Shown here: positions 8,922 through 33,187 of the stretch, piece by piece | How the letters are laid out: every line of letters starts with the position of its first letter | How positions within the stretch are numbered: position 1 is the stretch's first letter | NCBI GenBank assembly: GCA_024401275.1 | Contig: JAKSLJ010000034.1 | Coordinates: 1 to 34,281 of the forward strand | DNA from: Bacteroidaceae bacterium | GTDB lineage: Bacteria > Bacteroidota > Bacteroidia > Bacteroidales > Bacteroidaceae | Length of the DNA stretch: 34,281 nucleotides | Direction: 5' to 3' | The notes under the pieces: generated by a model | The model's database searches: none | What the model was told of the DNA's origin: nothing | What the model saw: the letters and a program-made list of their open reading frames with translations, nothing else | Translations under genes and position numbers: made by a program

Positions 8922-8951
8922 GCTGTGAACAACCAATAGATTTTGCTATAT

Positions 8952-16814: not shown

Positions 16815-16845
16815 TTGCACAAATCGTTTTTTTTTCTTAATTTTG
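16815..16845 (+). promoter_or_regulatory. promoter of the FtsK/VWA/kinase operon
   Basis: TTG (16815-16817, -33-like), a 20-bp spacer, then TAATTTTG (16838-16845, exact TAnnTTTG). The start codon at 16930 follows after an ~80-nt leader. This is the only strong promoter I can find ahead of the 16-kb gene set. Confidence 0.6.
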
Positions 16846-16929: not shown

Positions 16930-19900
16930 ATGCAGACCTTAAAAGACTTTAGGACATTCCTTGATTGCGAATATGACAAGATTGCATCTATCCTGCGTGA
17001 AGGTAGTTTGTTCTCTGCTGTAAAAAGCGAAGAGGCAAACATTGCGCGAGTAAAGGACAATCTGTCTCGTACCTCAAAGCTACAGCGTACCCAGCAACAA
17101 GACTTGATACAGCGAAAATACCAAGTGAAATTGGATTGTATCAATCAATTCTTGTCAAAGCTTGGAATGTCTCTCAATAATCCAAGCATGATGACTCGTG
17201 AAGACATAACACGAATCTCCGGATTGCTTAAGGAGATGATTGGATTGGTAGATGAACAGAAAACACGCGAATTGAACGATGTCATTTCGCAAGCAGATAC
17301 CAAGACCCAGACTCAGATAGACGAATATACAGAGCGCACCAGTGCTGTACTTGACAAGCATATTCATGATGCCCAGGCAAAGATGTACGAGCTGCTCCGT
17401 AAGCTTGAGCCTCTAAACGACTATTATGAGACCGCCTCAATAGATGCTCCAATTTGGGATCAGCTGAAAATAAAGTCTGCATTCCCACAGCTTGACGAGA
17501 TACGTCTCGGAGAGAGTGCAACAACAGTTGAATGCAAAAACGAGCGCATCACATGCAGTGTGCCAGAGGTAGTGCCATTCTTCACACGCAACTCTCTCAC
17601 GGTTGTTTATGACAAAAACGACCGAACCAAGCTAAAGAGTGTTGTGGACAATATCCTTGTTCGCGGACTTGTTTCTGCTCAGACTGGAAATGTCAAGTTC
17701 ACCCTGATTGACGGAAATGGCAATGGCTCTTTGTTCTTCGACTACTTGAAGTGTTCACAGCGTACATTGGAGCTCTTCAACAACAATATCATAACTCGGA
17801 CTGGCGACATAGACCGATTCCTTCTTGGTCTTTTGACAGACTATGATAGTCTTAACCAGACACGACTGAAGGGCGACACGATAAAAGTCTATAACAAGAA
17901 TAACCCAAATCATACCATTCCTTACCAGATTGTGGTAATAGACTCTTTCCCAAGTGGACTGTCGTCTTCATCAATGCAGATCGTCAGTCGTTTGATACGA
18001 GAGGAAATAAATTCCGGCTTGCATTTCGTATTGCTCACCCAGAAGGAAAATCTTCAGAGCGTTTTGTCTGTCGTCCATGATACTGCATTATTTGAGATTT
18101 CATCTGGATATCAGATTCATCCTCTTATGCATGGTGTAGTGGAAAACACAATCAAGTATCTTGACCATTCATCAAAGGACATCTCATTGCTCTTCGAGGA
18201 TTATTTCAATCAAGCATTCGAGTGGTGGACTGGCAATTGCGCCAATACGACTTCCATACCTTTGGGTTATGGCGATTCTGGTGTCTATAATTTCATTTTC
18301 GATGAAGAAGGTGCAGCCGACGAAGGCAGGGACGCAACGGCATTTGCAATAGTTGCAGGTTCTACCGGTTCGGGAAAATCATTCTTCCTACACAATATCA
18401 TTCTTAGTGCAAGTATGATGTACACCCCTGACGACCTGAGATTCATGCTCGTCGATATGAAGAAGGTGGAATTCAAGTCATACATAGACTATAAACTGCC
18501 TCATGCGGAATATGTTGCATTGCAAGCAGACCCGGAATATGCCCTTAACATGCTCAAACTCATACAGAAGAAAGTAGATGAGCGTGCCCGACTCTTCCAG
18601 GAGAATGGAGTGTCTAACTATGCAGAGTATCGCATCCAGCATCCAGAGTCAAAGCTTCCAAGATACTTGATCATCATAGACGAGTATCAGGAAATGTTCA
18701 AGGGCAGCAAGAAGGGGGAGATCGAACGTGCTCTTGAGACGATACTCCGCACAGCCCGTGCCTTTGGATTCAACATGATCTTGTCGTCGCAGAATGTGGC
18801 GCTGAGTCCTAGCCTGCTGCTAAACTTCTCTCATCGCATAGTGATGAAGATGAAAGATCAGATGGTGATACAGGAACTTATCGGTTCGTACAGCGAGAAG
18901 AGGCCTCTTAATTTTAAGCCAGGTGAGGCTCTTATCCATGTCAACAAGAGCGAGATAATGCAGAGTTTCTTCTTGCCGCTTCCTAATTTTGCAAAGGAAG
19001 GCCAGCTCTGCCGATTTGACTACATGAAACGTATTGCAGACGCTTGGGATGCACGAACCAACGGAGAAGGCGAATACCCTATGTATGTATTCGACTTGCA
19101 GAAGCTTGCATATCTGGAAAGCAACAAGACTGTAGCAAGCATGCAGCCAGTTCCGGGCATAAAGAACATACTCTTCACTCCTGGAGAAAAACTCATGGCA
19201 GATGGCGACGACTTTATCTGTAAGATAACAGGTAGGGAAAACAATGAGAACATCCTGGTTGTGGGTGGAGATACATTTGTTTCTGCAAAGGTGGCAAACG
19301 GATGTCTGCATTCGATGCTTCCACAGTTTGCATCGTCTAGTACAGAAATCAACATCCTCAATTTCATACCGAAGGTTCGTGACGAAGTTTATTCAGCTGT
19401 TGAAAAATCTGCACATGACATACAGACGCAGTATCCACTTGCTACATACTCAACCTCAGGTTTGCAGGAATTGCTTGACCGAGTGAAAGATGAGATCGCC
19501 GAGCGAACAACGGCATTGCAACAAGGTCAGACACTCGATCCACACATCATTGCCATTTTCGGAACAGGAAATTGTCCTGAGCTTGCAAATGTGAAGAGCA
19601 TAGATGAATTCTTGGGCATAGAGGAAATCAAGCGCTCGCCAGTATGCAGTTTGTTGAAAGATGTTCTTGCCGAATGTTCTATCGTTGGCATACATTTCAT
19701 TATTCATATATTTAATACAGAAGAATTTGACGGAGTGTTTGAGAGCAAGGGCAACTCTATAGGCGTATTCAAGCATCGTTTGCTGTTGCAAATGAGCAAT
19801 AATGCCAGCGAATACTTCTTGGAGAATTATATGAATGATGATGCTGCAAATCTGGTGAATGCAAATCTTGATGCACAGTTTGCACAAAATGTATGTCTCT

Positions 19901-19953
19901 ACTATAATTCGGTGACCAAGTCACAAACAAAGCTCAAACCTTATGAATTCTAA
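16930..19953 (+). CDS. FtsK/SpoIIIE (EssC-like) multi-module ATPase
   Basis: 1007 aa. Residues ~1-175 are helical/coiled coil. Module 1 (~200-440) has an FtsK-like fold pattern (LTVVYDKNDRTKLKSVVDNI, VKFTLIDGNGNGSLF, GLHFVLLTQ) but no Walker A. Module 2 is a complete FtsK ATPase: Walker A GSTGSGKS at 477-484, LRFMLVDMKKVEFKSY, Walker B YLIIIDEYQEM with D584-E585, then ARAFGFNMILSSQ and the FSHRIVMKMKD tail. Module 3 (~740-1007) is degenerate (NILVVGGDTF, HIIAIFGTGN, VGIHFIIHI, FKHRLLLQMSN). Three tandem modules with at least one active resemble the type VII secretion motor EssC/EccC. Unlike those, no FHA domain or transmembrane segment is present, so it is soluble or docked to a partner. First gene of the operon. 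Confidence 0.85.
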   Translation: MQTLKDFRTFLDCEYDKIASILREGSLFSAVKSEEANIARVKDNLSRTSKLQRTQQQDLIQRKYQVKLDCINQFLSKLGMSLNNPSMMTREDITRISGLLKEMIGLVDEQKTRELNDVISQADTKTQTQIDEYTERTSAVLDKHIHDAQAKMYELLRKLEPLNDYYETASIDAPIWDQLKIKSAFPQLDEIRLGESATTVECKNERITCSVPEVVPFFTRNSLTVVYDKNDRTKLKSVVDNILVRGLVSAQTGNVKFTLIDGNGNGSLFFDYLKCSQRTLELFNNNIITRTGDIDRFLLGLLTDYDSLNQTRLKGDTIKVYNKNNPNHTIPYQIVVIDSFPSGLSSSSMQIVSRLIREEINSGLHFVLLTQKENLQSVLSVVHDTALFEISSGYQIHPLMHGVVENTIKYLDHSSKDISLLFEDYFNQAFEWWTGNCANTTSIPLGYGDSGVYNFIFDEEGAADEGRDATAFAIVAGSTGSGKSFFLHNIILSASMMYTPDDLRFMLVDMKKVEFKSYIDYKLPHAEYVALQADPEYALNMLKLIQKKVDERARLFQENGVSNYAEYRIQHPESKLPRYLIIIDEYQEMFKGSKKGEIERALETILRTARAFGFNMILSSQNVALSPSLLLNFSHRIVMKMKDQMVIQELIGSYSEKRPLNFKPGEALIHVNKSEIMQSFFLPLPNFAKEGQLCRFDYMKRIADAWDARTNGEGEYPMYVFDLQKLAYLESNKTVASMQPVPGIKNILFTPGEKLMADGDDFICKITGRENNENILVVGGDTFVSAKVANGCLHSMLPQFASSSTEINILNFIPKVRDEVYSAVEKSAHDIQTQYPLATYSTSGLQELLDRVKDEIAERTTALQQGQTLDPHIIAIFGTGNCPELANVKSIDEFLGIEEIKRSPVCSLLKDVLAECSIVGIHFIIHIFNTEEFDGVFESKGNSIGVFKHRLLLQMSNNASEYFLENYMNDDAANLVNANLDAQFAQNVCLYYNSVTKSQTKLKPYEF

Positions 19954-19970
19954 AAACTTCTATTATATAT

Positions 19971-20282
19971 ATGAGCAATTCACAGTTTAGAACAGCAAAT
20001 GGCATGATTGCCGACCCTAGACAGATGAGGGAATTTGTCGCAAAAATGCAGCGACAGATGGAGGATTTCACTAATACGCTTGGTGAAACTCGTGGTGCCA
20101 TCCTTAAGACAAATCAGTTAGGCTTTCAAGATGGCATCTATGAAAAGTTTAACCAGGACTTCGAAGAAGATGCCAAGATAATCGGTAAGATCAATGAAGG
20201 TCTCAACCAATTCTCTGTGCATTATCTTAACTTGGCAAAAAAGGTAGAAGAATATTTAAAAACAGTCCACGAAAGGAGATAA
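19971..20282 (+). CDS. WXG100-like helical hairpin protein A
   Basis: 103 aa, almost entirely helical: helix 1 about 15-46, a turn LGFQDGIYEKF at 50-60, and helix 2 to the end. The size, the central turn with aromatic-x-x-G (F52-Q-D-G55) and the F60 that follows match the WXG100/EsxA layout, with Phe replacing Trp. The turn and YEKFxxxF motif recur in the next gene, so the two are paralogues and could form a heterodimer. Position directly after an EssC-like ATPase is where Esx substrates sit in type VII loci. The assignment rests on architecture, not on a strict WXG motif; a small adaptor is the alternative. Confidence 0.55.
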   Translation: MSNSQFRTANGMIADPRQMREFVAKMQRQMEDFTNTLGETRGAILKTNQLGFQDGIYEKFNQDFEEDAKIIGKINEGLNQFSVHYLNLAKKVEEYLKTVHERR

Positions 20283-20286
20283 TGAA

Positions 20287-20586
20287 ATGGGAACAATAAA
20301 TGGTGCACATAATACGGTCGAAGCATTAGAACTAGGTATCAAGAGTCTTGAGGCTTATGCAGCAAAACTTGTGGAATTTGACCAGAAGACTAAGGAGGCT
20401 GCAAAATATCTGGGCACGACTCACAGAGACCAGAACTACGAGAAATTCTATAACACATTCGTTCCTTTCTGGAAGAATGTAGATAATTTCAAGAATCATG
20501 TTGATGAATATAAGGACTATCTTGTGATTAAACTAGGCCAGATAAAAGCCTACGATGAAGATGGTGAAATAGACGGCATCAATTAG
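20287..20586 (+). CDS. WXG100-like helical hairpin protein B
   Basis: 99 aa, helical, 4 bp after protein A (GGAG lies 13-16 bp before its ATG). Helix 1 is about 8-42; the turn LGTTHRDQNYEKFYNTFVPF aligns with the turn of protein A through LG...YEKF...F; helix 2 is about 58-92, ending in an acidic tail EDGEIDGIN. No signal peptide, as expected for Esx-like proteins, which are exported by the ATPase rather than by Sec. Likely partner of protein A (inference from tandem order and shared motif). Confidence 0.55.
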   Translation: MGTINGAHNTVEALELGIKSLEAYAAKLVEFDQKTKEAAKYLGTTHRDQNYEKFYNTFVPFWKNVDNFKNHVDEYKDYLVIKLGQIKAYDEDGEIDGIN

Positions 20587-20598
20587 TAGCCTAAGAAG

Positions 20599-21096
20599 AT
20601 GGATGAAACAGCTAATGTTGTAGATGCAAGTGTATTCGTTCAGTTGAGCAAAGCGATAAACGAATATATTGATGGATGCCATCATTCCATTGATCAGGCG
20701 CGTTTCTTTATGTTGCAACAAGACAATGCACTTGAGGAAGTAAATAATTTGCTCTTGCAACGATTGAAAGATGCAGAACAATGGCGCATGAATGCAGATA
20801 TAGCTTTGAGAGTGTGTCAGCAGCGAGTAGAATATGACGACGAAGGTCGCCGTGTAACGCCAAACTGTGGTTGCGAAAAACGAGATCTTCGCGATGCTGT
20901 TGAGGCATTAAAGGTTGCTCAGCGTAACAAGGACACCATGGACGGAATATTGCGTTACGCAGAGCAACTGAAGGAAAAGTTCCATGATCATGAAGCTCAT
21001 CTAAAGAATCTTGCAGACCAAATACTGCCTGATGCCTCAGATTGGATGCTCCGCTGCCGACAGATTGTGGATGAATATCAAAAATTATCTATATAA
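20599..21096 (+). CDS. helical coiled-coil protein, 165 aa
   Basis: Nearly all helix with heptad-like spacing (YIDGCHHSIDQARFFMLQQD, LKDAEQWRMNADIALRVCQQ, LRYAEQLKEKFHDHEAHLKN). A short loop at ~88-95 contains NCGCEK; the two cysteines could bind metal or form a disulfide, but no partner cysteine pair is obvious. No membrane segment. Unrecognised family. It sits between the WXG100-like pair and the degenerate FtsK, with 12- and 2-bp gaps, so it is likely a chaperone or structural component of the same machine. Confidence 0.7.
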   Translation: MDETANVVDASVFVQLSKAINEYIDGCHHSIDQARFFMLQQDNALEEVNNLLLQRLKDAEQWRMNADIALRVCQQRVEYDDEGRRVTPNCGCEKRDLRDAVEALKVAQRNKDTMDGILRYAEQLKEKFHDHEAHLKNLADQILPDASDWMLRCRQIVDEYQKLSI

Positions 21097-21098
21097 AT

Positions 21099-21467
21099 AT
21101 GGAAGAAAATAATGAAAACAACGAACAGAGTATAGAAGAGACTCTCCCCCCTATTACTCTCGACTTCATAAAATCAACGAAAGCTTTTCTTTGCGTCACG
21201 GAGCAATTCCCTGGCGAACGCTGGAATGACTGCGTTGCTCAATGTTTCCATGATACTATTGATCTGAAGACAAGACATGTCGCAACTGATTATCTAAAAG
21301 AATTTCTCAATCTTATCCATGGATATGAAGTGCTAATAGAAGAGGCGGAGAAACTGACCAAATGGAATGCGGGCATGGGTGGCTGGCTTTCATTCAATCA
21401 GATTTCAATGCTTATGTCGCGCCAGATATCACGCTTTCTTACAGGACGTGATGGTGTCAGACTATAA
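21099..21467 (+). CDS. small helical protein, 122 aa
   Basis: An acidic, disordered first 18 residues (ENNENNEQSIEETLPPITLD), then a compact helical domain with aromatic and basic positions (FPGERWNDCVAQCFHDTIDL, GWLSFNQISMLMSRQISRFL). No motif recognised. It starts 2 bp after the preceding stop, and the next gene starts 15 bp later, so it belongs to the operon. Cytoplasmic adaptor is my best guess. Confidence 0.65.
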   Translation: MEENNENNEQSIEETLPPITLDFIKSTKAFLCVTEQFPGERWNDCVAQCFHDTIDLKTRHVATDYLKEFLNLIHGYEVLIEEAEKLTKWNAGMGGWLSFNQISMLMSRQISRFLTGRDGVRL

Positions 21468-21482
21468 AACAAGAAACCCAAT

Positions 21483-23966
21483 ATGAACAATAACATCAAT
21501 TTAATACTTCCAAGCATACAGAGTTTCTGTCGCCAAGGATTTATGCTGCCGCAACAAAAGCAAGCGCTGAAAAGCCTGGCAGATGCTCATGGGATAGATT
21601 GGAGTGAACTTGAACCGTATATAAATGCAGAGCTGAAGAATGCTCGCGAAGCAACACTTGACACACTCTATAAAGCTTCAAAGCAACCAGATGCAGCCAT
21701 CTGCAACGAAGTGAAACTCTACACACAGTCACGCAGACAGTTTCCTGATGTAATTAAAATGGGAACGTTGACTTTGAAACTGAACAAAGAGGTGCATGCG
21801 CCAGCCTTTGTGCCTATTCAAGGAATGCGTGGCCTCTGCGTAAAACACTCCTCAAACGAAGTTGGGGCTCGCAACATGTTGCTCAATGCAGCAATGCGCA
21901 TTATGCTCTCAGTGCGTCGTTCTCTCACCAAGATAACTTTGATTGATCCTGTCAATATGGGCGACGACTTCTTGCAGATATCAGGACTTGACCGTCGGTT
22001 GCTGACTGTCATCAGGGATGATGCAGAAACCATCAACTATCTCCAGAAGCTTGTTAAGGATCTGTCTGATTTCAATTTCAACGAGATGGGCAACAAGTAC
22101 GAGGATCTTGCTTCGTACAATCGTGATCATATCACAAATGCTCGTCCTTACGAATTGGTCATAATACCGGAATTTGCCAAATGCCTGAACAAGAACACCC
22201 TTCCTATGCTAGAACGTATTGGAAAGTTGGCTAGCAAGGCAGGCGTATTCTTTATGTTGATGATAGATGAAGCGAACTTGCAGGCAGAACCTGGACTTTT
22301 GAACGTCTTCCAGAAGGCTCTCTGTTTAGTAGATATTAGCAGTGAGGCACCATATATAGAGACTTCGGAAGTAACAAAACTCTTCAACAATGCATACGAT
22401 TTCACTCCTCAGACCGAACTTGAGTTCAATGACAAGACTATAGCAGAAATCAACCATGAGTTCGATCCTGAGTCTTGGAACATTGCTGTTGCCCAAAATT
22501 CCGGTCTTCTCAGCATCGATTCGATCTGCGCAACTTTGGGTACAAATGCATCAAAAGGAAAGAAAATCTCCGTGCAGCTTGAACGAGAGGGAGACAATGT
22601 GCTTGTCGTTTCATCTAATGCATCCAATGCTACTAAGACTATCCAAAAAATACTTAGTGGTATTGCCAGCGCCTATAGACATGAAGAGATATCATATATG
22701 TTCTTCAACTGTACTTTCGTCGGCACAACTGTTAATGGTCAGGATGTGAAATGCAATGTACATACGGACAAGTTGCACTATCTGCAAGGATTGCTCAAGA
22801 ACATATCTGAAATTGTAGAGTCAAGAAAGTTGCAATTCAAGGATCTAGATTATGTATCATTCCGCAATAGTAGCGAAGAGCAAACGCCTCGCATCCTATG
22901 CGTGGTAGATGGTATTGAGAAGATTCTCGATTCTGACGACATCAGTGCTGTAGAGTCTGTAATGATACTTGACACATTGCTTAGCGAGGCTGGCAGGTAT
23001 GGAGTACATTTCATACTTGCAGGATGCCCAACATTCAGCTTTTACAAAATCAACATCGCTGATAATATCAACTATAAGATGCTCTCGTCGATGGATGAGA
23101 TGGAAACATCGCAAATTGGACTTTTCCTCAGCGCCGAGGAGAACAATCATATTCAGGTAGAAGGTCAATCACTTCTCAACTCAGCAAAGGTAGGGCAAAA
23201 TGTTCTTGTTATCGACCTGGCGGATGACAATGATGCTTGGATGAAGGCGTGCGACAGGCTATCGGAAAACAGAAGTGAAAGTCAATCAATAAATGTTATT
23301 GAGGATTTTGCTGATAACTACCCAACGTGCTACAACGAAACAAAAGTTTCCGACTTACCAGACTCTGCATTTGCAGATTCAATACCTTTGGGCATAGTTC
23401 GAGAGTTCACTGCCCAGTATGCTTGTCTGAAGCGAAAAGACGCTGACACCTTTGTGGTAGGCAATGATACCGATAGCATTGAATCAATTCTCAAATCCGT
23501 CTATGAGGCAGCGAAGCGTACTGTGGGAATTGACGGCATGAGTGTTTACGATGCTTCTAATCAATACTTGATTGGCATACCAGGCTTGTCAGGTGTTGCT
23601 CCTTGTTCGCAGCTTTCGTCAGTTCCTGTAGCAACTGATGGTATTGTCTGCCTTCTCAATATGGATGAGTGTGATTTCAATGATTCTTCAGAGTTTGACA
23701 AGTTGATGGACCGCGCAGCCAAAGCAAATGCAAAAGTAGTCATGATGAGTAAAACCGATTTGCTTGCTGAAGGCAAGATTGGATTATTCCAAAGCAGATT
23801 TAGGGAAAAGATTGCATTAGTTGGGGCTCCTGATACATTTGTATCACCTTTCTTGCTTGTGGCAAACAAGACGATATCTTCTCCACAGCACGCATGCAGT
23901 GCTCTGCTTGAAACTATTGCGAATGATTATTCAACAGAAATCAATAGCCTTTGGCTTTTTAAATAA
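21483..23966 (+). CDS. catalytically dead FtsK/EssC-like protein
   Basis: 827 aa. The N-terminus (about 8-50) is a small helical TerB-like segment (GFMLPQQKQALKSLADAHGI). Two or three FtsK-like modules follow, recognisable from strand patterns (KITLIDPVNM, YELVIIPEF, AGVFFMLMID; then NVLVVSSNASNATKTIQKIL from N372, RILCVVDGIEKI, AGRYGVHFILAGCP; then DTFVVGNDTDSIESILKSVY, DGIVCLLNMDE). Where Walker A should be, the sequence reads SSNASNATKT, and the Walker B acidic pair is absent, so it should not hydrolyse ATP. Its general organisation mirrors the active ATPase three genes upstream, suggesting a non-catalytic ring partner or a substrate-recognition platform. Confidence 0.7.
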   Translation: MNNNINLILPSIQSFCRQGFMLPQQKQALKSLADAHGIDWSELEPYINAELKNAREATLDTLYKASKQPDAAICNEVKLYTQSRRQFPDVIKMGTLTLKLNKEVHAPAFVPIQGMRGLCVKHSSNEVGARNMLLNAAMRIMLSVRRSLTKITLIDPVNMGDDFLQISGLDRRLLTVIRDDAETINYLQKLVKDLSDFNFNEMGNKYEDLASYNRDHITNARPYELVIIPEFAKCLNKNTLPMLERIGKLASKAGVFFMLMIDEANLQAEPGLLNVFQKALCLVDISSEAPYIETSEVTKLFNNAYDFTPQTELEFNDKTIAEINHEFDPESWNIAVAQNSGLLSIDSICATLGTNASKGKKISVQLEREGDNVLVVSSNASNATKTIQKILSGIASAYRHEEISYMFFNCTFVGTTVNGQDVKCNVHTDKLHYLQGLLKNISEIVESRKLQFKDLDYVSFRNSSEEQTPRILCVVDGIEKILDSDDISAVESVMILDTLLSEAGRYGVHFILAGCPTFSFYKINIADNINYKMLSSMDEMETSQIGLFLSAEENNHIQVEGQSLLNSAKVGQNVLVIDLADDNDAWMKACDRLSENRSESQSINVIEDFADNYPTCYNETKVSDLPDSAFADSIPLGIVREFTAQYACLKRKDADTFVVGNDTDSIESILKSVYEAAKRTVGIDGMSVYDASNQYLIGIPGLSGVAPCSQLSSVPVATDGIVCLLNMDECDFNDSSEFDKLMDRAAKANAKVVMMSKTDLLAEGKIGLFQSRFREKIALVGAPDTFVSPFLLVANKTISSPQHACSALLETIANDYSTEINSLWLFK

Positions 23967-23975
23967 ATAGGGTAT

Positions 23976-24899: not shown

Positions 24900-25093
24900 A
24901 GGTGGGTTCTATAAATTACCACCGAGATTTTCTTTAATGATTAATGGGTTACGTTTTGTCATCTTTCGGTTTCTTTTTGGCTCAAACTGTCAGTTAAATC
25001 AGTCGTGTAGCCCGCTACACTCCATCTTTAACTAACATTTTGAACTCAAAAATAAACTCGCAAGCTAACAAAGCTAATTTATAGAACCCACCT
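24900..25093. mobile_element. 194-bp MITE inside the operon
   Basis: Perfect 19-bp terminal inverted repeats: AGGTGGGTTCTATAAATTA at 24900-24918 and its complement at 25075-25093. The interior has a palindromic centre, GTGTAGC-CC-GCTACAC (25005-25020), with further pairing (TTAAA/TTTAA) around it, and no ORF. It lies between the MORN and VWA genes, accounting for most of the only large gap in the first eleven genes. Flanks are A-rich, so a target duplication cannot be resolved. Confidence 0.7.
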
Positions 25094-25145
25094 AAAAAAG
25101 AACTAACTTGTATGCATTTTTGCATCACTAAATAATAAACAGAAG

Positions 25146-25817
25146 ATGAATACACCAAAAGAACGTAGGCTCAAGGGCCCTATGAACATGAAGTCTCCAA
25201 AGACATTTGAGCAGTTAGGAATTCTTGTATTGGATGGCAGTGGATCTATGGAAGAAGAAACTCGCAATAAGATTTCAAAAGCAGCTGCGGTTTCAGAAGC
25301 AACACAAGATCTATTCTCTCGTTTCAAAATAAGCAGAATTTCCAGGAATTTCAGTTTTGCGATTGTCAACTATGACCATCGTGCGGAAATTGCAATGCAG
25401 CCAACAGAAATGAAGGATATTGACGACCATGCTGATTATAATCCGATGAAGAATCTTGGTGGAGCAACATATATTTCTGAAGGTTTGAAGAAGGCAAAGG
25501 ACATGGCTGTTGATTTTCTTGCAGAAGAAAATGAAAGCGGCTTGACACGTTCCGTTGTAGTTGTGTTAATGACCGATGGAGTCGATATGACAGAAGCTGA
25601 GACAGTCAGCGTTGCTAAGCAACTTGTTGACATGGAACACGTTGATGTCTGCGGCTGTTTCTTTGAAACACTCGGAGCTGACCATGTAGAAATGAAGAAA
25701 TGTGCAGATTATATCAAAGGGCTCTGTTCAGAAGAACGACTCTATGCCGATGTGGCAGATTCAGAGGATCTTCGTAAATTCTTTATTGCAAGTATGTCTA
25801 ATGGCAATGTCATTTAA
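25146..25817 (+). CDS. TerY-like VWA-domain protein
   Basis: 223 aa, essentially one von Willebrand A domain. The MIDAS metal site is complete: D30-G-S32-G-S34, T108 in GGATYISEGL, and D144 in LMTDGVD. The order VWA, PP2C, kinase is that of the TerY-P triad known from tellurite-resistance-type gene sets, where TerY binds metal and couples phosphorylation to a larger complex. No signal peptide, so cytoplasmic. The MITE upstream may have separated this gene from the previous ones, but the -7-like sequence CATTTTTG at ~25117 is only weak evidence for a local promoter. Confidence 0.88.
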   Translation: MNTPKERRLKGPMNMKSPKTFEQLGILVLDGSGSMEEETRNKISKAAAVSEATQDLFSRFKISRISRNFSFAIVNYDHRAEIAMQPTEMKDIDDHADYNPMKNLGGATYISEGLKKAKDMAVDFLAEENESGLTRSVVVVLMTDGVDMTEAETVSVAKQLVDMEHVDVCGCFFETLGADHVEMKKCADYIKGLCSEERLYADVADSEDLRKFFIASMSNGNVI

Positions 25818-25829
25818 AGTGAAGTCTTT

Positions 25830-26957
25830 ATGGATAGGATTTCAAATCACCTTGACGACAATTTTACATTAATTTTCGCACTCCTACTTATCATCCTATT
25901 GATTGCAGCAATTGCCTTGCTGATCTTGGCAGGATATATAATGTACAAGAAGTATATGAACACAAAACCAATAACTCCTTTTGATCCTGAGGATACGTCT
26001 GATTGCCAGACTCTCGACAGTCAGACTCTCTCATCTCCCCTTGGTACATCTGTAATTGCCAATGCAAGCGACGTATCCGGCACTACAGCATTTGCTGTAG
26101 CAACAGAGACAAACAAGAAAGGAACCAATCAGGACTCTTTCTGCCAGAAATATCTACCGTCTGCCTCTGCTTCAATCATTGCTGTAGCTGACGGTGTCGG
26201 TAGCTCTTTCAGATCGGAAATCGGCAGTGCGTTTGTTGCCAATCGGGCTGTGGAACTTATTGCCGAAGCAATAGAAAAGGATCCCAAGCAGATAGATTTT
26301 GACTGCATTTTCAATAGGGTTCAGCAGGATTTTGATCTGGAGATTGAAAAGCAGTTTGCCGATCAGATGGATGTAATACCTACGACTGGAATGGCATTCG
26401 CCACAACCCTTGTTGTAGGCATTGACCTCCCTGACCGTTTCATTGCTGCCTATGTTGGTAATGGATCAATTATACATCTGTCAAACAGGTTCATCACATT
26501 CCCAAAATACATTTGTGTACCTTGGAATGCAGTCAACCTCTTGAACCCTCACACTGTGGATCAGGGCGGAAAGGAATCTCTTTACAGAGTATTCTTCTAT
26601 AAGGGCATTGAAAGAGCTCACCAACCTTCCGTGGTAGAGGTAAGAAAGCAAAAGCAAGGCAATGACGGTGAAATATTCATAATCACTACTGACGGCGTGA
26701 ACTCAAACGATCATGATATTGCAGGCAAGGATGAAGAGGGAAGCATTTGGTCACCTGTTTCCCAGCAGTTGGCTGACCTTTATGACCATTTGAAAGCGTA
26801 TGTGACAAGTCCGGAAGAAATCAATAACGAAACACTTCTGACCTCTGTTGAAACCTATCTTAAGGCAATGAAGGAGGGTAAAAAACTCGATGACGACACA
26901 ACTCTCGGAGTATTCATCACTCCTCTTGCAATAAAGTATTTCAAAGATATTAAATAA
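25830..26957 (+). CDS. membrane-anchored PP2C-type Ser/Thr phosphatase
   Basis: 375 aa. One membrane helix at about 13-38, then a linker rich in T, S and D, then a PP2C fold: NKKGTNQDSF at 95-104 (motif with D102), ADGVGS (D121-G122), AAYVGNGSIIHL (motif GDS replaced by GNGS), TTDGVN (D288) and DDDTTLG (D354-D356). The metal-binding aspartates are present, so it should be active. The expected partners are the two kinases directly downstream. The catalytic domain lies in the cytoplasm if the N-terminus is outside. Confidence 0.88.
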   Translation: MDRISNHLDDNFTLIFALLLIILLIAAIALLILAGYIMYKKYMNTKPITPFDPEDTSDCQTLDSQTLSSPLGTSVIANASDVSGTTAFAVATETNKKGTNQDSFCQKYLPSASASIIAVADGVGSSFRSEIGSAFVANRAVELIAEAIEKDPKQIDFDCIFNRVQQDFDLEIEKQFADQMDVIPTTGMAFATTLVVGIDLPDRFIAAYVGNGSIIHLSNRFITFPKYICVPWNAVNLLNPHTVDQGGKESLYRVFFYKGIERAHQPSVVEVRKQKQGNDGEIFIITTDGVNSNDHDIAGKDEEGSIWSPVSQQLADLYDHLKAYVTSPEEINNETLLTSVETYLKAMKEGKKLDDDTTLGVFITPLAIKYFKDIK

Positions 26958-26968
26958 TAGAGGAAAAG

Positions 26969-28417
26969 ATGCAAACGCTCGAAATAGGATATTACCAAAG
27001 CGTACTTGACAAATCTGAATTAGCTGACCATTGGGAGATATCCATAGAAGACCATTCCTTCTCTCATGGGGGATTTGGGGAGATCTTCCATATCATCAAT
27101 ATTGATGGGGTAGCACCAGAGCAGCCTCTTGTACTTAAGTTGTTTTTCAATAATAAAGAACAAGAGCATTGCTTTGATGCTATTTCCCAGTTAGGTGGTA
27201 AGGTGTTCGATCAAGTTCACGATAATAAAAACTTCCTTGAAGATTATCCTGCACTCAGGGCTTTGCCATTGTGTATATTCGGTGTTGAAATTGATGGAAT
27301 CGAAAGGGATGGTTATGTGATGTACGATCTCGCGGAAATGGATCTTATCGGTTTTGATAAGATTGCCGTGGATTATGATGAAGATGCCTATGAGGAGTTC
27401 GAAAATCATGACCTCACATGGCGACTTACAGCGGCATACCATTTGGTTAGAGGATTTCATATGTTGGAAAAGATGAGGTTCCTCCACGCTGACATCAGTG
27501 CCGACAACATCTTCATAGGCAAGAAAGAGCCTATGGCGGTAATACTGGATTACGACAGCGGTGCGGTTATTGAGTCAAAGGACGATACTCCTTCTACTTT
27601 CGGAAAGAATCAGCCATGGCTTGCTCCAGAGATTCTCTTTCAGCTAAAGGGTATGCAAAAGAAGGGGAAAGCCTTAGTGGACGTTAATATCTACTCCGAC
27701 AGGTGGGCTGTGGCAAATGCGATAGTACAGATACTTACTTCCATGCAGGCACTCTATCTGACCGATTTGTCTGAGGAAACATTGAGGCGATACAGCAAAT
27801 CATACCAGTGGCCAAAAATAGATACCTCTGACAGCATCTTTATGGAAGGTAATGAAGAGTATTACGAAGAGTTCATTGAGCGTTGGAAAGAGCTTCCTGA
27901 ACCGGTAAGGAGAGAACTGGACTACACCTTCAATAAGGGTATGTTCAACCCTCAGTGCCGAACATCGTATGGCAGATGGGAAATGATCTTGAGGTCGGTT
28001 ATTCAACAGAACGGTCTTCATGTGCCTTTACCAACTCCACATACTTCCTCGGCAGGAAATAACTCTGCAAAGCCAAAGCCTAGCCCAAAGAATGTAGTCA
28101 ATAAAACTGGTAATGTTGAAGATTTGGAGGCTGCAAAGGAAGAACTTAACAAATACATGGATGTTCTGGTGATGGACATCATAAGTGGCTCAGAAAAAAT
28201 CGAAGACAATAAGTTCTTCATTGACATGAGAGCACAAAAAGCTGAGGTGAATCCTGATGAACTGATAAGCGAACTGAAAGATTTTATCGAGATGTTCAAT
28301 ACATGCCGAAAGCATAAGCCATCGCAGTTCGAACTAAAGAATCTTAGATATCAAGGTTCAAGAGCATTTATCAGTCTTTATATCGTGGATAATATTATTG
28401 ATAGATATTGTAAATGA
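26969..28417 (+). CDS. Ser/Thr protein kinase 1 (TerY-P type)
   Basis: 482 aa. Kinase domain about 25-345: glycine loop FSHGGFGEIFHI (G34-G37), lysine K57 in LVLKLFF, catalytic loop HADISADN (H173-N180, with A for R in HRD), DYDSG in place of DFG (D194 in LDYDSG), LAPEILFQ as APE. A S/T/P-rich linker (~355-385) follows, then a helical C-terminal domain (~388-482) with KFFIDMRAQKAEVNPDELIS. It lacks a membrane segment. It ends in a 4-bp ATGA overlap with the second kinase, so the two are translationally coupled. Expected to phosphorylate partners in the machine, opposed by the PP2C. Confidence 0.88.
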   Translation: MQTLEIGYYQSVLDKSELADHWEISIEDHSFSHGGFGEIFHIINIDGVAPEQPLVLKLFFNNKEQEHCFDAISQLGGKVFDQVHDNKNFLEDYPALRALPLCIFGVEIDGIERDGYVMYDLAEMDLIGFDKIAVDYDEDAYEEFENHDLTWRLTAAYHLVRGFHMLEKMRFLHADISADNIFIGKKEPMAVILDYDSGAVIESKDDTPSTFGKNQPWLAPEILFQLKGMQKKGKALVDVNIYSDRWAVANAIVQILTSMQALYLTDLSEETLRRYSKSYQWPKIDTSDSIFMEGNEEYYEEFIERWKELPEPVRRELDYTFNKGMFNPQCRTSYGRWEMILRSVIQQNGLHVPLPTPHTSSAGNNSAKPKPSPKNVVNKTGNVEDLEAAKEELNKYMDVLVMDIISGSEKIEDNKFFIDMRAQKAEVNPDELISELKDFIEMFNTCRKHKPSQFELKNLRYQGSRAFISLYIVDNIIDRYCK

Positions 28418-29820
28418 AAGTAATAAAGGTAACGGGCAGTGTTTCTTCTCTTGGGCTTGATCCACATTTTGAAGCAATAAAAACAATTGAGATTGAGGAC
28501 AAGTGTTTTGCAGAAGGTGGTTTTGGCCGTATCTACCATTGCATAACGGTGGACAAAAAGAAATGCCATAAACCGCAAGTCATAAAGATTTTCAAGGATA
28601 GTTGTGGCAGTGCTGCACACAGCTATCGCACCATCATGGGGTTGCTCAATGGTTTGAAGCGTAAAAAGGAAGAACTGGATGAACTGGAAATAGACCTGAT
28701 AGATTATTATCCAGCGTTGTTCGGTGCTCCTCAGTTTGTGTTTGAAGGTGAACTTGATGGTGAGTATGTTCAGGGATATTCCGCAAACAACTTGACGAAG
28801 TTCGGCTATGTGTGCTTTACAGATGTATTGGAGAAAAACGACGTCATGGAAAAGTATTACGATATATCCATTGAAAGCCGTACTGGTATGGCATATCACC
28901 TTGTTCGTACGTTTGAACTGCTGAAAGAAATCCGATATATACATGCCGACTTCAAGTCTGATAATTTCTTTGTCGGTCTTGGCGATGATGATAAGTGTGC
29001 CCTTATTGACTATGATAGTGGATCAATCATTGAGAATCTTAATGATGAACCATTTACTGCAGGAACTCCTTCGCAGGATATGCTTGCGCCGGAGATTCGT
29101 TCGCAGCTGCATGCAACAGGTCATGCCAAAGTAAATCTGCATACAGACGTTTGGTCGGTTGCCGTCGCTTGCCATTACCTCTATTTCCTTTGTCATCCTT
29201 TTTATTCGTTATCGGAAGTATCTGACCAATCGGTTTCTGCATATAACGCCAAATTTACATGGCCTGCAATAGACAAGAGTTTCAAATACATTAACGAAGA
29301 TATTGTCGATTACATAGATGATTTACAGGAGAACTACACTCTGATTGACAATGAAATAATAAAATGTTTCAGATATACATTCACCAGCGGCTACTTTAAT
29401 CCAAACTACCGTACCTCGTACAGTCAGTGGCGAATGAAACTTACTCCATCGCTGCCAGAAGGCTCCGAGCGTAAAAGCCTTGAATGGATAAGGCGACACA
29501 AATTTGCCCCAGAACCACAAAAGCCTACTTATACGGTGAGTCCAGAGAATTTTGCTGGATATATCTCTGAACTCGCCATTGACATAATCAATCACAAGAA
29601 ATATCTGCATCAGCTTAAGGATGAACTCCAGAAAATAGAAAGGGAACTCAATAAGCCTCGCCTTTACGATAAGACACAAGCCTTCATCACAGCTTACTTC
29701 GACATCTGGGCTGATGGCGTCATCACAGAAACTGAACGCAGAAAGTTTATGTTTACAGGTAAGACACTCGGAGTTAATCCTGATGTTGTCGAGATGTTGT
29801 TAGCGACAAATCCGTTATAA
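28414..29820 (+). CDS. Ser/Thr protein kinase 2 (TerY-P type)
   Basis: 468 aa. Paralogue of kinase 1: glycine loop CFAEGGFGRIYH (G35-G38), K58 in VIKIFK, HADFKSDN (H177-N184), DYDSG (D199 in LIDYDSG), LAPEIRSQ. It has a longer insert after the N-lobe (KKEELDELEIDLIDYYPALF). The C-terminal ~100 residues are helical and end with WADGVITETERRKFMFTGKT then LGVNPDVVEMLL, a TerB-like metal-binding pattern (DG...E). It follows kinase 1 with a 4-bp overlap and precedes the membrane paralogues by 3 bp. Catalytic residues are intact. Confidence 0.88.
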   Translation: MKVIKVTGSVSSLGLDPHFEAIKTIEIEDKCFAEGGFGRIYHCITVDKKKCHKPQVIKIFKDSCGSAAHSYRTIMGLLNGLKRKKEELDELEIDLIDYYPALFGAPQFVFEGELDGEYVQGYSANNLTKFGYVCFTDVLEKNDVMEKYYDISIESRTGMAYHLVRTFELLKEIRYIHADFKSDNFFVGLGDDDKCALIDYDSGSIIENLNDEPFTAGTPSQDMLAPEIRSQLHATGHAKVNLHTDVWSVAVACHYLYFLCHPFYSLSEVSDQSVSAYNAKFTWPAIDKSFKYINEDIVDYIDDLQENYTLIDNEIIKCFRYTFTSGYFNPNYRTSYSQWRMKLTPSLPEGSERKSLEWIRRHKFAPEPQKPTYTVSPENFAGYISELAIDIINHKKYLHQLKDELQKIERELNKPRLYDKTQAFITAYFDIWADGVITETERRKFMFTGKTLGVNPDVVEMLLATNPL

Positions 29821-29823
29821 ATT

Positions 29824-31212
29824 ATGAAAGACAAGTCTTTATTTAACAGCAAAGAATACAATGAAGAGCGTATCGAATACATCAACGAATGTGTTCGTGA
29901 GGTATGTATTAATGGCGACGACCTCAGCAAGTATGAGAAGATGATCGGGAAATTGTTCCCAGAAGAACCGGAGCTATTCTTAAAGCTATCAAGCTTTGTG
30001 GAGTTCTGTGTCTCTTTAAAGTTTCGTAAGTCAATGTCAGAAACATCTGTTGCAAACATCAAATATCTTGCTGAAGAAATACATGTAACAGACGACACAA
30101 TTGCTTTGTTGACTAAAGAAAATTCTCTGGATGAAAGTAATAATCTGAACTCAGAGAATAATGTTTTTTTGTCAAAAATCCGTAATAATTTTCAGCGGCT
30201 GTGGTTAGTCGGGGGAATTGTTTGTGGCATTTGTTGTTTTTGTGTGCTATTCATCTGTGTAAGTGATCCGTATAGCTCTTTTTTTGATGGAAAATATTGG
30301 CTTTTGGTGTTTACGGGATTAGGAACAGTTGGCCTTCTACTTGAATGGCGAAAAGTTCGATATGCAGTTTTCCTAACAATGGCATCATTCACCCTCCTTG
30401 CTTTTTCTTTAATAGGTTATGATGAGTCCCTCTGGATGATGATGATGATGATTTGTGTATTTCTTCACGGGATTGTAATGAAGATTAGTCGTGTTAAAGA
30501 AAGACAAAGTAAAATGGTCATGAAAGATAAATCATTATTTAATAAAGAAAACCAAGATTTCGTAACAGATGCTACAATAGATGTTTTGTTGTCTGGATAT
30601 TCACAATCGGCAGATAAGCAGGGAAGTTTGTGGGGTAGGTTGTTCCCGATTGCGAAATACAGAAAAATTATGTTGTCTGTACTGTTATTGACAATTGTCT
30701 GGTTTTGCAGTTACTTTTATGGAGGAACAATCGATTCTATATTAGGTCTTATATGTTTTGAGATTTCGGTTTCATCTATAGCGATTATTGTCGGGTTCTT
30801 CTTGATAGTTTCTGATGTTAAATGTCATCATCTAAAGACTATAGATGCTCCCAAATGGTTAGCCCCCCATCTTAAGATACTTAGTATTGGAAGGGCATTG
30901 ACTATAACGATATTTATTATATTTGCTATTCTGTTATATGGTGTATTTTATAAAGAAATAATACTGGAGTATAGTAGTTATTATGATGGTTTTGATGTAG
31001 TAAATCTTTTTATTCCTTTCCACATACTCTTGTTATGTATGGGAATATCTATTCTATGTGTACTTTTATTCAATCTAATAAATTGTGATTTCAAAGCACT
31101 ACATCTTGTAAAAACTTACGTGGTTGTAATGTTATTATTGCTAATATGTGTATTATGCATATATGGGGAATTGTTCTTATATTTCCCCAAAGAATTATTA
31201 TTTAGACACTGA
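29824..31212 (+). CDS. membrane protein with shared N-terminal domain, internal duplication
   Basis: 462 aa. Residues ~1-100 are the helical domain shared by three tandem genes (starts MKDKSLFNSKE; core ERIEYINECVREVCINGDDL; ends VANIKYLAEEIHVTDDTIALL). Four membrane segments follow at about 125-220. At 233 a second MKDKSLFNKEN appears in frame with a shortened helical part, followed by four or five further membrane segments to the end. This looks like two paralogues fused by loss of the intervening stop, or an internal start at 30520. No enzyme motif. Likely a membrane sensor, anchor or pore partner of the kinases (inference). Confidence 0.7.
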   Translation: MKDKSLFNSKEYNEERIEYINECVREVCINGDDLSKYEKMIGKLFPEEPELFLKLSSFVEFCVSLKFRKSMSETSVANIKYLAEEIHVTDDTIALLTKENSLDESNNLNSENNVFLSKIRNNFQRLWLVGGIVCGICCFCVLFICVSDPYSSFFDGKYWLLVFTGLGTVGLLLEWRKVRYAVFLTMASFTLLAFSLIGYDESLWMMMMMICVFLHGIVMKISRVKERQSKMVMKDKSLFNKENQDFVTDATIDVLLSGYSQSADKQGSLWGRLFPIAKYRKIMLSVLLLTIVWFCSYFYGGTIDSILGLICFEISVSSIAIIVGFFLIVSDVKCHHLKTIDAPKWLAPHLKILSIGRALTITIFIIFAILLYGVFYKEIILEYSSYYDGFDVVNLFIPFHILLLCMGISILCVLLFNLINCDFKALHLVKTYVVVMLLLLICVLCIYGELFLYFPKELLFRH

Positions 31213-31214
31213 TA

Positions 31215-31237
31215 ATTATGTCATATAGTAACATAAT
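31215..31237 (+). other. short hairpin in the gap before the second paralogue
   Basis: ATTATGT (31215-31221) and ACATAAT (31231-31237) form a 7-bp stem. The 70-bp gap holds no ORF. It could be a processing or weak attenuation site. Confidence 0.25.
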
Positions 31238-31282
31238 CATTTAAATGCAGATTTAACATGTATGATTCAATAAATAAAGATT

Positions 31283-32107
31283 ATGAAAGATAAATCTCTT
31301 TTTAACAACACGAATGATACTGAGCGTATCGAATACATCAACGAATGTGTTCGTGAGGTATGTATTAATGGCGACGACCTCAGCAAGTATGAGAAGATGA
31401 TCGGGAAATTGTTTCCTGAAGAAGAGCATTACTACGCAAAGGTTCAGGCATTTATCAATCAGTTTAGAACTCTCTCTAATAAGCAAGCTATTTCTGATAC
31501 CTCAATAGCCAACATAAAGTATATTGCCAAAGATGTCCATGTTACAGATGATACCATAAGCTGTATATTGTCGGACATAAAAGATAAGCGCCAGCGCAAG
31601 GCTGAGGAAGAGCGTAAACGCAAAGAAGCGGAAAGCAAGCGCTTTGTGGAAGAAGCGAAAAAACGTTTGGCAGAGGAAAACCGTCAGCAAGAGGAAATGG
31701 AGCGCCAGCGCAAAGCAGAGGAAGAGCGTAAACGCAAAGAAGCGGAAAGCAGACGTTTTGTGGAAGAAGCGAAAAAACGTTTGGCAGAAGAAGACCGTCA
31801 GCAAGAGGAAATGAAACGCCAGCGTAAAGCTCAGGAAGAGGCAGAAGAGAGAAAACGATGGGAAGAGCTTCAGAAACGTATGGCTGAGCAAGACCGTCAG
31901 CAGGAGGAAACGGAATGCCAACACAAGGCTGGGGAAGGCCAGGAGAAGAAAGGCTGTATGGCACTTGTTTTGACAGTTTTGCTTCATTGGTTTGCTGCTT
32001 TATTCGTCGGCGGATTGTTTGGAATTATCGGACTACCTGCTGTTGGAGGTCTTATATTTATTGGTTGGTTAGTGTATTTGGGGTATAAAATTAAAGCAGA
32101 ATGGTAA
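31283..32107 (+). CDS. shared N-domain plus coiled coil and C-terminal membrane segment
   Basis: 274 aa. Residues ~1-95 are the shared helical domain (MKDKSLFNNTNDTERIEYIN...). From R103 to ~215 there is a charged coiled coil made of a 38-residue unit (RQRKAEEERKRKEAESKRFV...) repeated twice almost perfectly, then a third diverged copy. The C-terminus has two hydrophobic segments (ALVLTVLLHWFAALFVGGLF; IIGLPAVGGLIFIGWLVYLG), so the protein is anchored with the coiled coil in the cytoplasm. It resembles the charged helix of the MORN gene and may contact it. Unknown family. Confidence 0.75.
   Translation: MKDKSLFNNTNDTERIEYINECVREVCINGDDLSKYEKMIGKLFPEEEHYYAKVQAFINQFRTLSNKQAISDTSIANIKYIAKDVHVTDDTISCILSDIKDKRQRKAEEERKRKEAESKRFVEEAKKRLAEENRQQEEMERQRKAEEERKRKEAESRRFVEEAKKRLAEEDRQQEEMKRQRKAQEEAEERKRWEELQKRMAEQDRQQEETECQHKAGEGQEKKGCMALVLTVLLHWFAALFVGGLFGIIGLPAVGGLIFIGWLVYLGYKIKAEW
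31589..31816 (+). repeat. 114-bp in-frame tandem repeat (two units)
   Basis: Unit 1 is 31589-31702 and unit 2 is 31703-31816, each 38 codons and nearly identical in DNA. A degenerate third unit follows. The tract is a multiple of three, so length variation would keep the frame. Confidence 0.7.
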
Positions 32108-32185
32108 AAGAGCACCATAGTCATAAGGAACGAGCTGTGGACTCAAAGTTATACATAGAATGTAATTAACAAAAATAAATAGGTA

Positions 32186-33187
32186 ATGGAAGATAAATCT
32201 CTTTTTAACAACACAAATGATACAGAACGTATCGAATACATCAACGAATGTGTTCGTGAGGTCTGCATTAATGGCGACGACCTCAAGAAGTACGAGAAGA
32301 TGATTGGGAAACTGTTCCCTGGCGAGCCGGAACTATTTCAAAACCTCATGGTATTTGTCAAAAATTGGAATGGCATTAAGAGCCGTGAGACAATGACCGA
32401 AACCTCAATTGCTAACATCAGGTATATTGCGCAAAATATACATGTATCTGAAGAGACAATTGAGGCATTGTTGAAGGAGAAGACTGTGGCTACAAGACCG
32501 CAAGAAAGCCTATGGAAGAGACTCTTTCCATCAAAAATAGGCAGGATTGCAATGTATATTGCTCTTTTTTATACAATTGTAGGCGCTTTTATTTATGAGA
32601 TACAAAATCAACAATTTTATTTTGGTGAATTGACGGATTCTGATGCATGGTATGGTAGATTTCTTACCGTACTTAGTGTTCCTTTTGATGATGTTCTCCG
32701 CGAAGATTTATGGGTGTGGTTTTTTTCTGGGCAATTTGGGTATCGGGGTATTGTTGACATATTTAATGAAATCGTATCTGCATCTATCATTATTTTAATC
32801 TTCAGTCTCATAATGACCGATGCAAAGTTTGACCATCTGAAAAATATAAAATCTCCAAAATGGTTGAGCTTATCTCTTGAGTTTATTCGTATTGGCAGAA
32901 AATTAAGAGTGATTATGTTTGTCGTATTTGTTCTGATGGCAATATGTTTATTGGGTGTTATGTATTGGTATCACGATATGACTATATATGAAGCATTCCC
33001 GTTTTTCGGACTATACCATCTGTTGTTATTGGCAATTGGCTTCTCTATCTTAACAGTTTCTTTTCTGAAGCTTTTTAGATGCAACATTAGCTTATTATAT
33101 AGGTTTTATGCTTTAGTTATAATAGGTGTTTTATTAGCGTTGATTGGGACACGTTTCTATTATCTTCACTGGTGTTATTATCTATAA
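32186..33187 (+). CDS. membrane protein with shared N-terminal domain
   Basis: 333 aa. Residues 1-~95 are the shared domain (MEDKSLFNNTNDTERIEYIN; ENIHVSEETIEAL-type ending). About five membrane segments follow (IAMYIALFYTIVGAF, IVSASIIILIFSLIM, VIMFVVFVLMAICLL, LLLLAIGFSILTVSF, YALVIIGVLLALIG). The C-terminal half resembles that of the 29824-31212 protein (SDVKCHHLKTIDAPKWLAP versus TDAKFDHLKNIKSPKWLSL), so these two are full paralogues. The last gene of the operon; no clear terminator follows within 200 bp. Confidence 0.75.
   Translation: MEDKSLFNNTNDTERIEYINECVREVCINGDDLKKYEKMIGKLFPGEPELFQNLMVFVKNWNGIKSRETMTETSIANIRYIAQNIHVSEETIEALLKEKTVATRPQESLWKRLFPSKIGRIAMYIALFYTIVGAFIYEIQNQQFYFGELTDSDAWYGRFLTVLSVPFDDVLREDLWVWFFSGQFGYRGIVDIFNEIVSASIIILIFSLIMTDAKFDHLKNIKSPKWLSLSLEFIRIGRKLRVIMFVVFVLMAICLLGVMYWYHDMTIYEAFPFFGLYHLLLLAIGFSILTVSFLKLFRCNISLLYRFYALVIIGVLLALIGTRFYYLHWCYYL

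Follow-up and report, generated by a model that had tools for sequence, protein, structure and literature searches.

An EssC-like ATPase, WXG100-type proteins and a TerY-P-like VWA, phosphatase and kinase set in a rare Bacteroidales operon

An EssC-like motor ATPase and WXG100 proteins form the core of type VII secretion, and such proteins are usually treated as parts of Gram-positive secretion. Here we analyse a 14-gene operon of a Bacteroidales bacterium in which an EssC-like ATPase and two WXG100-type proteins are encoded together with a VWA protein, a PP2C phosphatase and two kinases. It lies in a window of 34,281 bases, which is the whole of one contig (C28) from a 3.2 Mb genome (71 contigs, 91% complete). 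Two described systems come closest. The available sections of PMC11090510 describe Type III-A CoCoNuT extensions with an EssC-like ATPase that has D2 alone active and no transmembrane (TM) helix, two WXG100 proteins and a TerY-P triad; this extension is expected there to act in secretion through some other mechanism, and TerY-P-like modules are reported to be active in defence. The available part of PMC4978471 describes an island, reported in 2016, from Helicobacter pylori, Sulfurimonas and Vibrio, in which VWA, PP2C and kinase genes occur with WxG and FtsK genes. The accessible part of PMC7159879 covers further conflict systems, in which VWA, kinase and PP2C occur in different contexts.

The association of an EssC-like ATPase, WXG100 proteins and a TerY-P triad is therefore already known, and the operon is a variant that lacks usual parts and has additions of its own. 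With the Type III-A extensions, as the same sections of PMC11090510 present them, it shares an EssC-like ATPase without TM helix, with an N-terminal extension and three domains of which D2 is the predicted active one, two WXG100-type proteins, a coiled-coil protein, a VWA protein, PP2C and a kinase. It differs from them in having no Pfam match to CnuB/CnuC (McrB/McrC-type), CnuH or CnuE, no CARF nuclease and no second VWA; no nuclease domain was found in its coiled-coil protein, and no C-terminal zinc ribbon or OB-fold was matched by Pfam on its kinases, P0011 and P0012. Its extras are a pseudo-ATPase, a MORN protein, a second kinase and three membrane paralogues. The island of PMC4978471, within the part available, resembles it in VWA, PP2C, kinase, WxG/FtsK genes and Gram-negative hosts, whereas the helicase, nuclease, ParA-like and DUF2357 genes of that island have no counterpart in the operon. 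A further precedent is a Caballeronia plasmid locus, which we infer to be one of the CoCoNuT extensions of PMC11090510. Given these precedents, the initial annotation overstated the novelty of the combination, and likewise that of an EssC/WXG100 pair without a channel, since such cassettes also occur in other Gram-negative groups. The operon is nevertheless notable for its predicted pseudo-ATPase, the absence of a recognised CoCoNuT core, a coiled-coil protein in which no toxin domain was recognised, and membrane paralogues that are possibly linked to a kinase. The text of PMC11090510 contains no word beginning with 'bacteroid', and that of PMC3935865 none of five Gram-negative terms; among the open-licence papers searched nothing fitting was found on Bacteroidota or Planctomycetota versions, nor any paper bringing together WXG100, Planctomycetes and type VII secretion.

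We hold, with about even confidence, that this is a rare accessory operon in which an EssC-like ATPase/WXG100/coiled-coil cassette found across phyla is placed under a TerY-P-like VWA–PP2C–kinase switch and used in conflict. Its rarity is plain from the counts. Relatives of the ATPase, P0001, were found in 3 of 295 genomes of the order at 1e-20 (its own, G082 and G174) and, by profile at 1e-30, in 3 of 395 genomes of the phylum (its own, G258 and G307, the G307 copy having internal stops). The second kinase (P0012) at 1e-10 and the pseudo-ATPase (P0006) at 1e-5 were each confined to their own genome, among the 295 genomes of the order and 60 of the genus, respectively. Scans able to detect close relatives only gave no close copy of the operon through P0001 in genome contigs, or through P0001 or P0006 in viral contigs.

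The motor assignment rests on several comparisons. P0001 matches the FtsK/SpoIIIE family (PF01580) with E 4e-28; its nearest NCBIfam model is EssC (E 3e-31), at 107.9 bits against an equivalog cut-off of 778.4, and its best solved-structure match is an EccC5 chain (1e-20). Internal comparison of domain profiles, built from 32 aligned ATPases, identified three homologous FtsK-like domains (D1–D2, P 2.7e-6; D3–D2, 1.2e-14; D1–D3, 1.1e-8). By pattern search, Walker motifs occur in D2 only (Walker A at residues 477–484, GxxxxGKS; Walker B at 580–585, hhhhDE), with none in D1 or D3, and D2 alone of the three modules looks active. The initial annotation of an active three-module ATPase is thus borne out as regards the three domains, but not as regards three active modules. 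A hydropathy scan gave no TM helix in P0001, including the N-terminal anchor of type VII ATPases, and the N-terminal region is presumably helical. The paralogue P0006, earlier called a dead FtsK, fits that description: it matches D1 (P 1e-12) and D2 (P 3e-10) and lacks Walker A, while a DE motif is present by pattern at residues 257–263. Its residues 560–827 match none of D1–D3.

A profile scan of species genomes gave at least 292 confirmed relatives of P0001. The best 80 of these (loci L024–L103) are, by record title, mostly from Planctomycetota, with single Alphaproteobacteria, Chloroflexota-type, Verrucomicrobia and Lentisphaerae records. A WXG100 gene was detected in 22 of the 80, many of whose contigs are cut and whose open reading frames (ORFs) were picked in a way that dropped overlapping genes; half of these (11/22) have the order WXG100, a gene of 176–393 aa, a gene of 70–101 aa, ATPase. 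In many of the Planctomycetota loci the EssC-like ATPases are of ~1300 aa and occur with WXG100, coiled-coil and ~70-aa genes. Cassettes with ATPase and WXG100 genes and no kinase are found in other Bacteroidota (L011, L014 and L015), Planctomycetota, Deinococcus (L020) and Helicobacter. Those of L024–L103, Deinococcus, Helicobacter and the HP0062 region of H. pylori resemble the operon in having the ATPase, WXG100-like and small partner genes adjoining; nearly all of those examined are without the kinase module. The Deinococcus ATPase is accompanied by four small genes, as in L014 and L015.

Among plasmids, P0001 matched 463 records at 1e-5, and the neighbourhoods of six of these (two as outgroups) were inspected, together with a Helicobacter plasmid. 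In Caballeronia the cassette parts lie beside a VWA–PP2C–kinase set, in the order VWA, WXG100, coiled-coil, two small genes, ATPase, CARF, VWA, PP2C, kinase, AAA, hypothetical, ParA-labelled, DUF2357. On the plasmid of Helicobacter sp. NHP19-012 (L122, 9408–13810) the order is WXG100-like, WHH nuclease, SUKH-1, a 77-aa gene and an EssC-like ATPase; the nuclease and SUKH-1 exceed their Pfam cut-offs, and this set is plausibly a toxin–immunity form of the cassette in a Gram-negative. The Rhodococcus ATPase has Hsp70/GrpE or TerD genes as neighbours. A tree built from 34 ATPases over 1195 columns pairs Caballeronia with Helicobacter (support 100) and sets P0001 apart (82/84), a result that fits, without proving, separate recruitment of the kinase module.

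The small partners could be connected to the same cassettes by profile. P0002 matches a family of 24 WXG100-like relatives (22 from the 80 genome loci, plus Caballeronia and L011) with P 3e-9 and score 53.8, and P0003 with P 1e-5 and score 35.3; twenty shuffles of each, scored against three profiles, reached at most 14.8 and 15.8, respectively. A joint profile of the two with 17 Planctomycetota-type relatives, and hence dominated by the relatives, matched HP0062 (2e-12) and EsxB/EsxA (2e-7 to 1e-5) in the PDB. Structure prediction gives P0002 as a two-helix hairpin (helices 16–49 and 55–102, bend 50–54; pLDDT 82, pTM 0.61). The W-x-G motif is absent from the bend of both proteins, which have FQD and HRD in its place; HP0062 has WRD there and an FtsK-type gene nearby, according to the available part of PMC3397514. 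By profile, then, both belong to the WXG100 superfamily without the W, as the initial annotation of two WXG100-like proteins of ~100 aa had it. The Pfam WXG100-type cut-offs are reached by three of eight small genes of related cassettes (92 aa in L011, 87 aa in L014, and Caballeronia), those of Helicobacter and Deinococcus falling below.

P0004 aligns over 159 columns with the coiled-coil gene of the Planctomycetota loci (P 4e-5, score 35.8, shuffles at most 15.9), a set of 32 genes picked by size and place of which some are unrelated, and it also matches the L014 coiled-coil gene (E 1.9e-6). Its CGCE motif corresponds to CSCE in L014 and to CSSE in Deinococcus and Caballeronia; L011 has no such motif, and its 167-aa gene was rejected as a coiled-coil partner, having no profile match. 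In L014 the coiled-coil partner (7813–9375) has 520 aa, and its C-terminal extension may be an effector domain; an ART-like identity was dropped, the Pfam ART-PolyVal match being at E 0.22 only. P0005 scores weakly against the ~70-aa partner (18.6, 20 shuffles at most 14.9), and the small genes of Caballeronia and Helicobacter gave no match to that profile.

The MORN, VWA, PP2C and two kinase proteins named earlier all exceed their Pfam cut-offs. Both kinases retain VLK/VIK, HxDxxxxN and DYD. P0010, by eye, has GNG at the position where GDS is usual in PP2C, and is a predicted phosphatase. Kinase 2 shows a clear likeness to the Caballeronia triad kinase (hhalign P 1e-7). Overall, the sequence itself gives the domain identities, a single ATPase domain with Walker motifs, the key motifs of the VWA protein and kinases, the order on one strand and the lack of a recognisable CoCoNuT core gene.

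Three paralogues at the operon end had also been noted previously, and they do share an N-terminal domain of ~105 aa (56–62% identical). Among 998 ORFs, the best non-self match of this domain is the C-terminus of kinase 2 (E 0.11; hhalign 1.3e-5). The C-terminus of kinase 1, at rank 10 of 998, was not supported as a further copy, a TerB identity was considered and never supported, and a match in 1 of 197 other genomes (3e-4), to a PspA/IM30 protein, was judged to be chance. Against solved structures the domain had no match at E 5. Tandem repeats encode charged repeats in P0014 (31587–31937) and in the MORN protein P0007 (23976–24410).

The operon comprises P0001–P0007 and P0009–P0015, all on the + strand at 16930–33187 (Table 1); the initial annotation had counted thirteen genes. 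It had also given one strand and short gaps. The strand is as stated, and the gaps, in order 17, 4, 12, 2, 15, 9, 246, 12, 11, -4, 3, 70 and 78 nt, are at most 78 nt in 12 cases out of 13, the exception being the 246 nt that separate the MORN gene from the VWA gene. This break, and the absence of the kinase module from most relatives of the ATPase cassette, would suit a reading in which two unrelated operons are chance neighbours and the genes from VWA to P0015 are a separate signalling or stress unit. However, 192–194 nt of the gap are a miniature inverted-repeat transposable element (MITE), leaving ~50 nt before insertion, and the pairing of the two modules recurs in Caballeronia and in the Helicobacter, Sulfurimonas and Vibrio clusters in the available part of PMC4978471. 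We regard chance neighbourhood as quite improbable.

The MITE insertion is recent. Three further full copies in the genome are 99% identical and one partial copy 85%. The three other full copies are flanked by TTA...TAA and the operon copy by TAA...AAA; should the outermost A/T of the repeat be included in the flanks, the target duplications would be of 4 bp, TTAA and TAAA. The predicted fold of the element, a long hairpin (-63.9 kcal/mol, RNA parameters), might affect read-through. Of the single strong promoter proposed earlier, the site itself was found, as a match to TTG-N20-TAATTTTG, which we take to be the Bacteroidota-type promoter consensus; its strength was not upheld, since the two strands of the window together hold nine occurrences of the pattern, where mononucleotide shuffles predict 2.5, and the site is therefore weak evidence. 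Scans for sigma-70 promoters and terminators gave scores no higher than shuffles.

Table 1. Features of the operon, with positions in the 34,281-base window
Feature	Position	Strand	Length	Description
Candidate promoter TTG-N20-TAATTTTG	16815-16845	+		Pattern scan; 84 nt before P0001
P0001	16930-19953	+	1007 aa	EssC/EccC-like ATPase: N-terminal region, D1, D2, D3
P0002	19971-20282	+	103 aa	WXG100 superfamily (by profile), bend motif FQD
P0003	20287-20586	+	99 aa	WXG100 superfamily (by profile), bend motif HRD
P0004	20599-21096	+	165 aa	Relative of cassette coiled-coil partner gene, CGCE motif
P0005	21099-21467	+	122 aa	Possible relative of ~70-aa small partner
P0006	21483-23966	+	827 aa	EssC-like paralogue of P0001 without Walker A
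P0007	23976-24899	+	307 aa	KAAEEEAQR-type repeat and MORN repeats
MITE	24900-25093		194 bp	19-bp perfect terminal inverted repeats; between P0007 and P0009
P0009	25146-25817	+	223 aa	VWA with MIDAS-type residues DGSGS, GGAT, TDG
P0010	25830-26957	+	375 aa	PP2C phosphatase, one N-terminal TM helix; DGVG, TDG, DDxT kept
P0011	26969-28417	+	482 aa	Ser/Thr-type kinase 1: HADISADN, DYD
P0012	28414-29820	+	468 aa	Kinase 2: HADFKSDN, DYD
P0013	29824-31212	+	462 aa	Shared N-terminal domain, eight hydrophobic stretches, internal partial repeat of own start
P0014	31283-32107	+	274 aa	Shared N-terminal domain, charged repeat, hydrophobic C-terminus
P0015	32186-33187	+	333 aa	Shared N-terminal domain, five hydrophobic stretches

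The host is a Prevotella-like gut-type bacterium. Its genome holds LpxA, an LpxC-FabA-type fusion and LpxD, and the host is therefore Gram-negative. Its LpxC fusion has 82% identity to that of Prevotella sp. oral taxon 299 and 67–73% to those of Phocaeicola, Bacteroides and Parabacteroides, which fits a Bacteroidales host. The placing of an EssC-type motor, WXG100 partners and a TerY-P-like set in a Gram-negative Bacteroidales is in this way confirmed. Bin contamination was judged unlikely, given the three 99% MITE copies on other contigs and the 65–68% relatives of the upstream GH9 gene in 8 of 59 other genomes of the genus. Also 5' of the operon are an AbiEii gene and a gene slightly below the AbiEi cut-off (an AbiE-like pair at 7075–8525), and on the - strand at 2469–6353 a gene of 1294 aa that matches nothing in Pfam at 0.01. 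Beyond the last operon gene the contig extends for 1.1 kb, so the operon may be incomplete on its 3' side. A cytosine methylase, an AAA_5 and a DUF2357 gene, which look like a separate restriction system, lie soon after the start of a different contig (C12; L121, 1980–7286) in the genome; continuation of the operon onto that contig was judged unlikely, since it opens with ~2 kb without a recognised gene, followed by the methylase.

Several results weigh against the proposed link between the cassette, the switch and conflict. The first concern the pairing of the two modules. Of the 75 loci with an ATPase ORF, two, the sister loci L091 and L092, have a kinase in the same-strand chain that holds the ATPase; the scan covered 126 of the 133 neighbours in such chains. 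No VWA or PP2C is among the 25 families listed for these neighbours, so that one or two such genes could have gone unlisted, and a motif scan added one further kinase near the ATPase, outside the chain (L078). None of four other Bacteroidota loci has kinase, PP2C or VWA by phmmer of the window proteins only, one of these loci (L015) being just 7.8 kb, and of five plasmid records that match the Caballeronia ATPase at 1e-30 only Caballeronia carries the module. No second copy of the complete operon was found in the scans made. The initial annotation had named rare neighbourhood of the ATPase and kinase parts as a finding that would count against it, and in these counts the two are indeed rarely neighbours, although their linkage recurs in separate groups. 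In addition, P0009, P0010 and P0011 are only weakly like the Caballeronia triad (hhalign P 0.003, 0.0015 and 0.001); with kinase 2 alone clear, the triad is TerY-P-like by content rather than by demonstrated common lineage. The branches of the ATPase tree are very long. As for the parts themselves, P0002 and P0003 have no direct match to Pfam WXG100 and none (P 0.007 or worse) to two small-gene families of L014, L015 and Deinococcus, which do match the 24-member family (P 5e-7 and 2e-4), and the presence of the P0013–P0015 domain in kinase 2 is suggestive only. Finally, the operon holds no recognised cargo or toxin domain. The Helicobacter nuclease was rejected as a member of the coiled-coil family, matching none of its profiles, and the Caballeronia coiled-coil gene has no Pfam match, so that the idea of a toxin carrier leans partly on the CoCoNuT paper.

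We propose the following model. P0002 and P0003, with P0004 and P0005, would assemble into a helical complex, an adaptor or a substrate, that binds to a ring of P0001, perhaps mixed or stacked with P0006, and ATP hydrolysis in D2 would move or remodel a bound protein. The two kinases would act with the membrane-anchored PP2C to set the on or off state, the VWA protein being a putative peptide-binding sensor or assembly factor and the MORN protein a putative scaffold. The N-terminal domain of P0013–P0015, possibly common to kinase 2, would recruit the three membrane proteins to the switch, which on this proposal would place the output at or across the inner membrane. That phosphorylation gates the motor, and which protein is moved, we infer. 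The most likely purpose is biological conflict, either phage defence or toxin deployment, because relatives of the cassette either include a nuclease together with an immunity gene or are located in islands of restriction type.

An alternative is true secretion, with P0001 and with P0013 and P0015 as an unrelated inner-membrane channel exporting the WXG100 proteins, or cargo encoded elsewhere, under gating by phosphorylation. The pairing of motor and WXG100 proteins, the membrane helices supplied by P0010 and P0013–P0015, and the nuclease–SUKH-1 layout of the Helicobacter plasmid would all suit this, as would the single hydrophobic stretch in each of the L014 and L015 ATPases and the one that ends the gene before the Deinococcus ATPase. 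Compared with type VIIb (EssC, EsxA, EssA/EssB, YukD/EsaB), however, the operon shares the motor family and the WXG100 superfamily but has no motor TM helix, FHA match, EssB/YukD or WxG motif. EssB/YukC (PF10140) and YukD (PF08817) gave no matches in the 91%-complete genome, with Bacillus subtilis positive among 14 controls; the earlier statement that every known type VII channel subunit is lacking holds for these two families. Nor was the outer-membrane exit that secretion would need seen in the operon, the rest of the genome not having been searched for one, and cargo was not found. We consider secretion unlikely.

A second alternative is an intracellular anti-phage machine akin to the TerY-P/CoCoNuT extensions, in which the switch senses infection, the EssC-like ring remodels or frees a toxic or membrane-active partner (P0013–P0015) and growth stops. 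It draws on the defence role given to TerY-P-like modules in the available sections of PMC11090510, on the CARF, DUF2357 and AAA genes of the Caballeronia locus, on the AbiE-like pair upstream and the methylase/AAA/DUF2357 set in the same genome, and on the domain possibly common to kinase 2 and the three membrane proteins. The absence of a CoCoNuT core from the operon speaks against it. PADLOC returned generic ATPase and kinase matches and a few weak ones (AbiTi for P0002, 0.0015; LeoBC for P0014, 1e-4), an outcome that says little, since PADLOC was silent on the Caballeronia VWA and PP2C too. This alternative also seems doubtful. A further reading would be a type VII-derived conflict machine without a channel, acting inside the cell and not in export, whose catalytic and pseudo-catalytic pair of rings (P0001/P0006), gated by the two kinases and the membrane phosphatase, would load or release the membrane effectors P0013–P0015 through a domain shared with kinase 2; we think it somewhat unlikely. 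If true, it would mean a homotypic effector domain in a channel-less EssC/WXG100 machine.

More broadly, the operon and its relatives point to an ATPase/WXG100/coiled-coil cassette that occurs in several Gram-negative groups without the known channel. In one case it comes with a nuclease and a gene of immunity type, and in more than one group it is joined to a kinase and phosphatase switch. This raises the question of what an EssC motor does without a channel, and whether phosphorylation gates it, and the dead ATPase paralogue and the putatively kinase-linked membrane proteins provide specific handles on that question.

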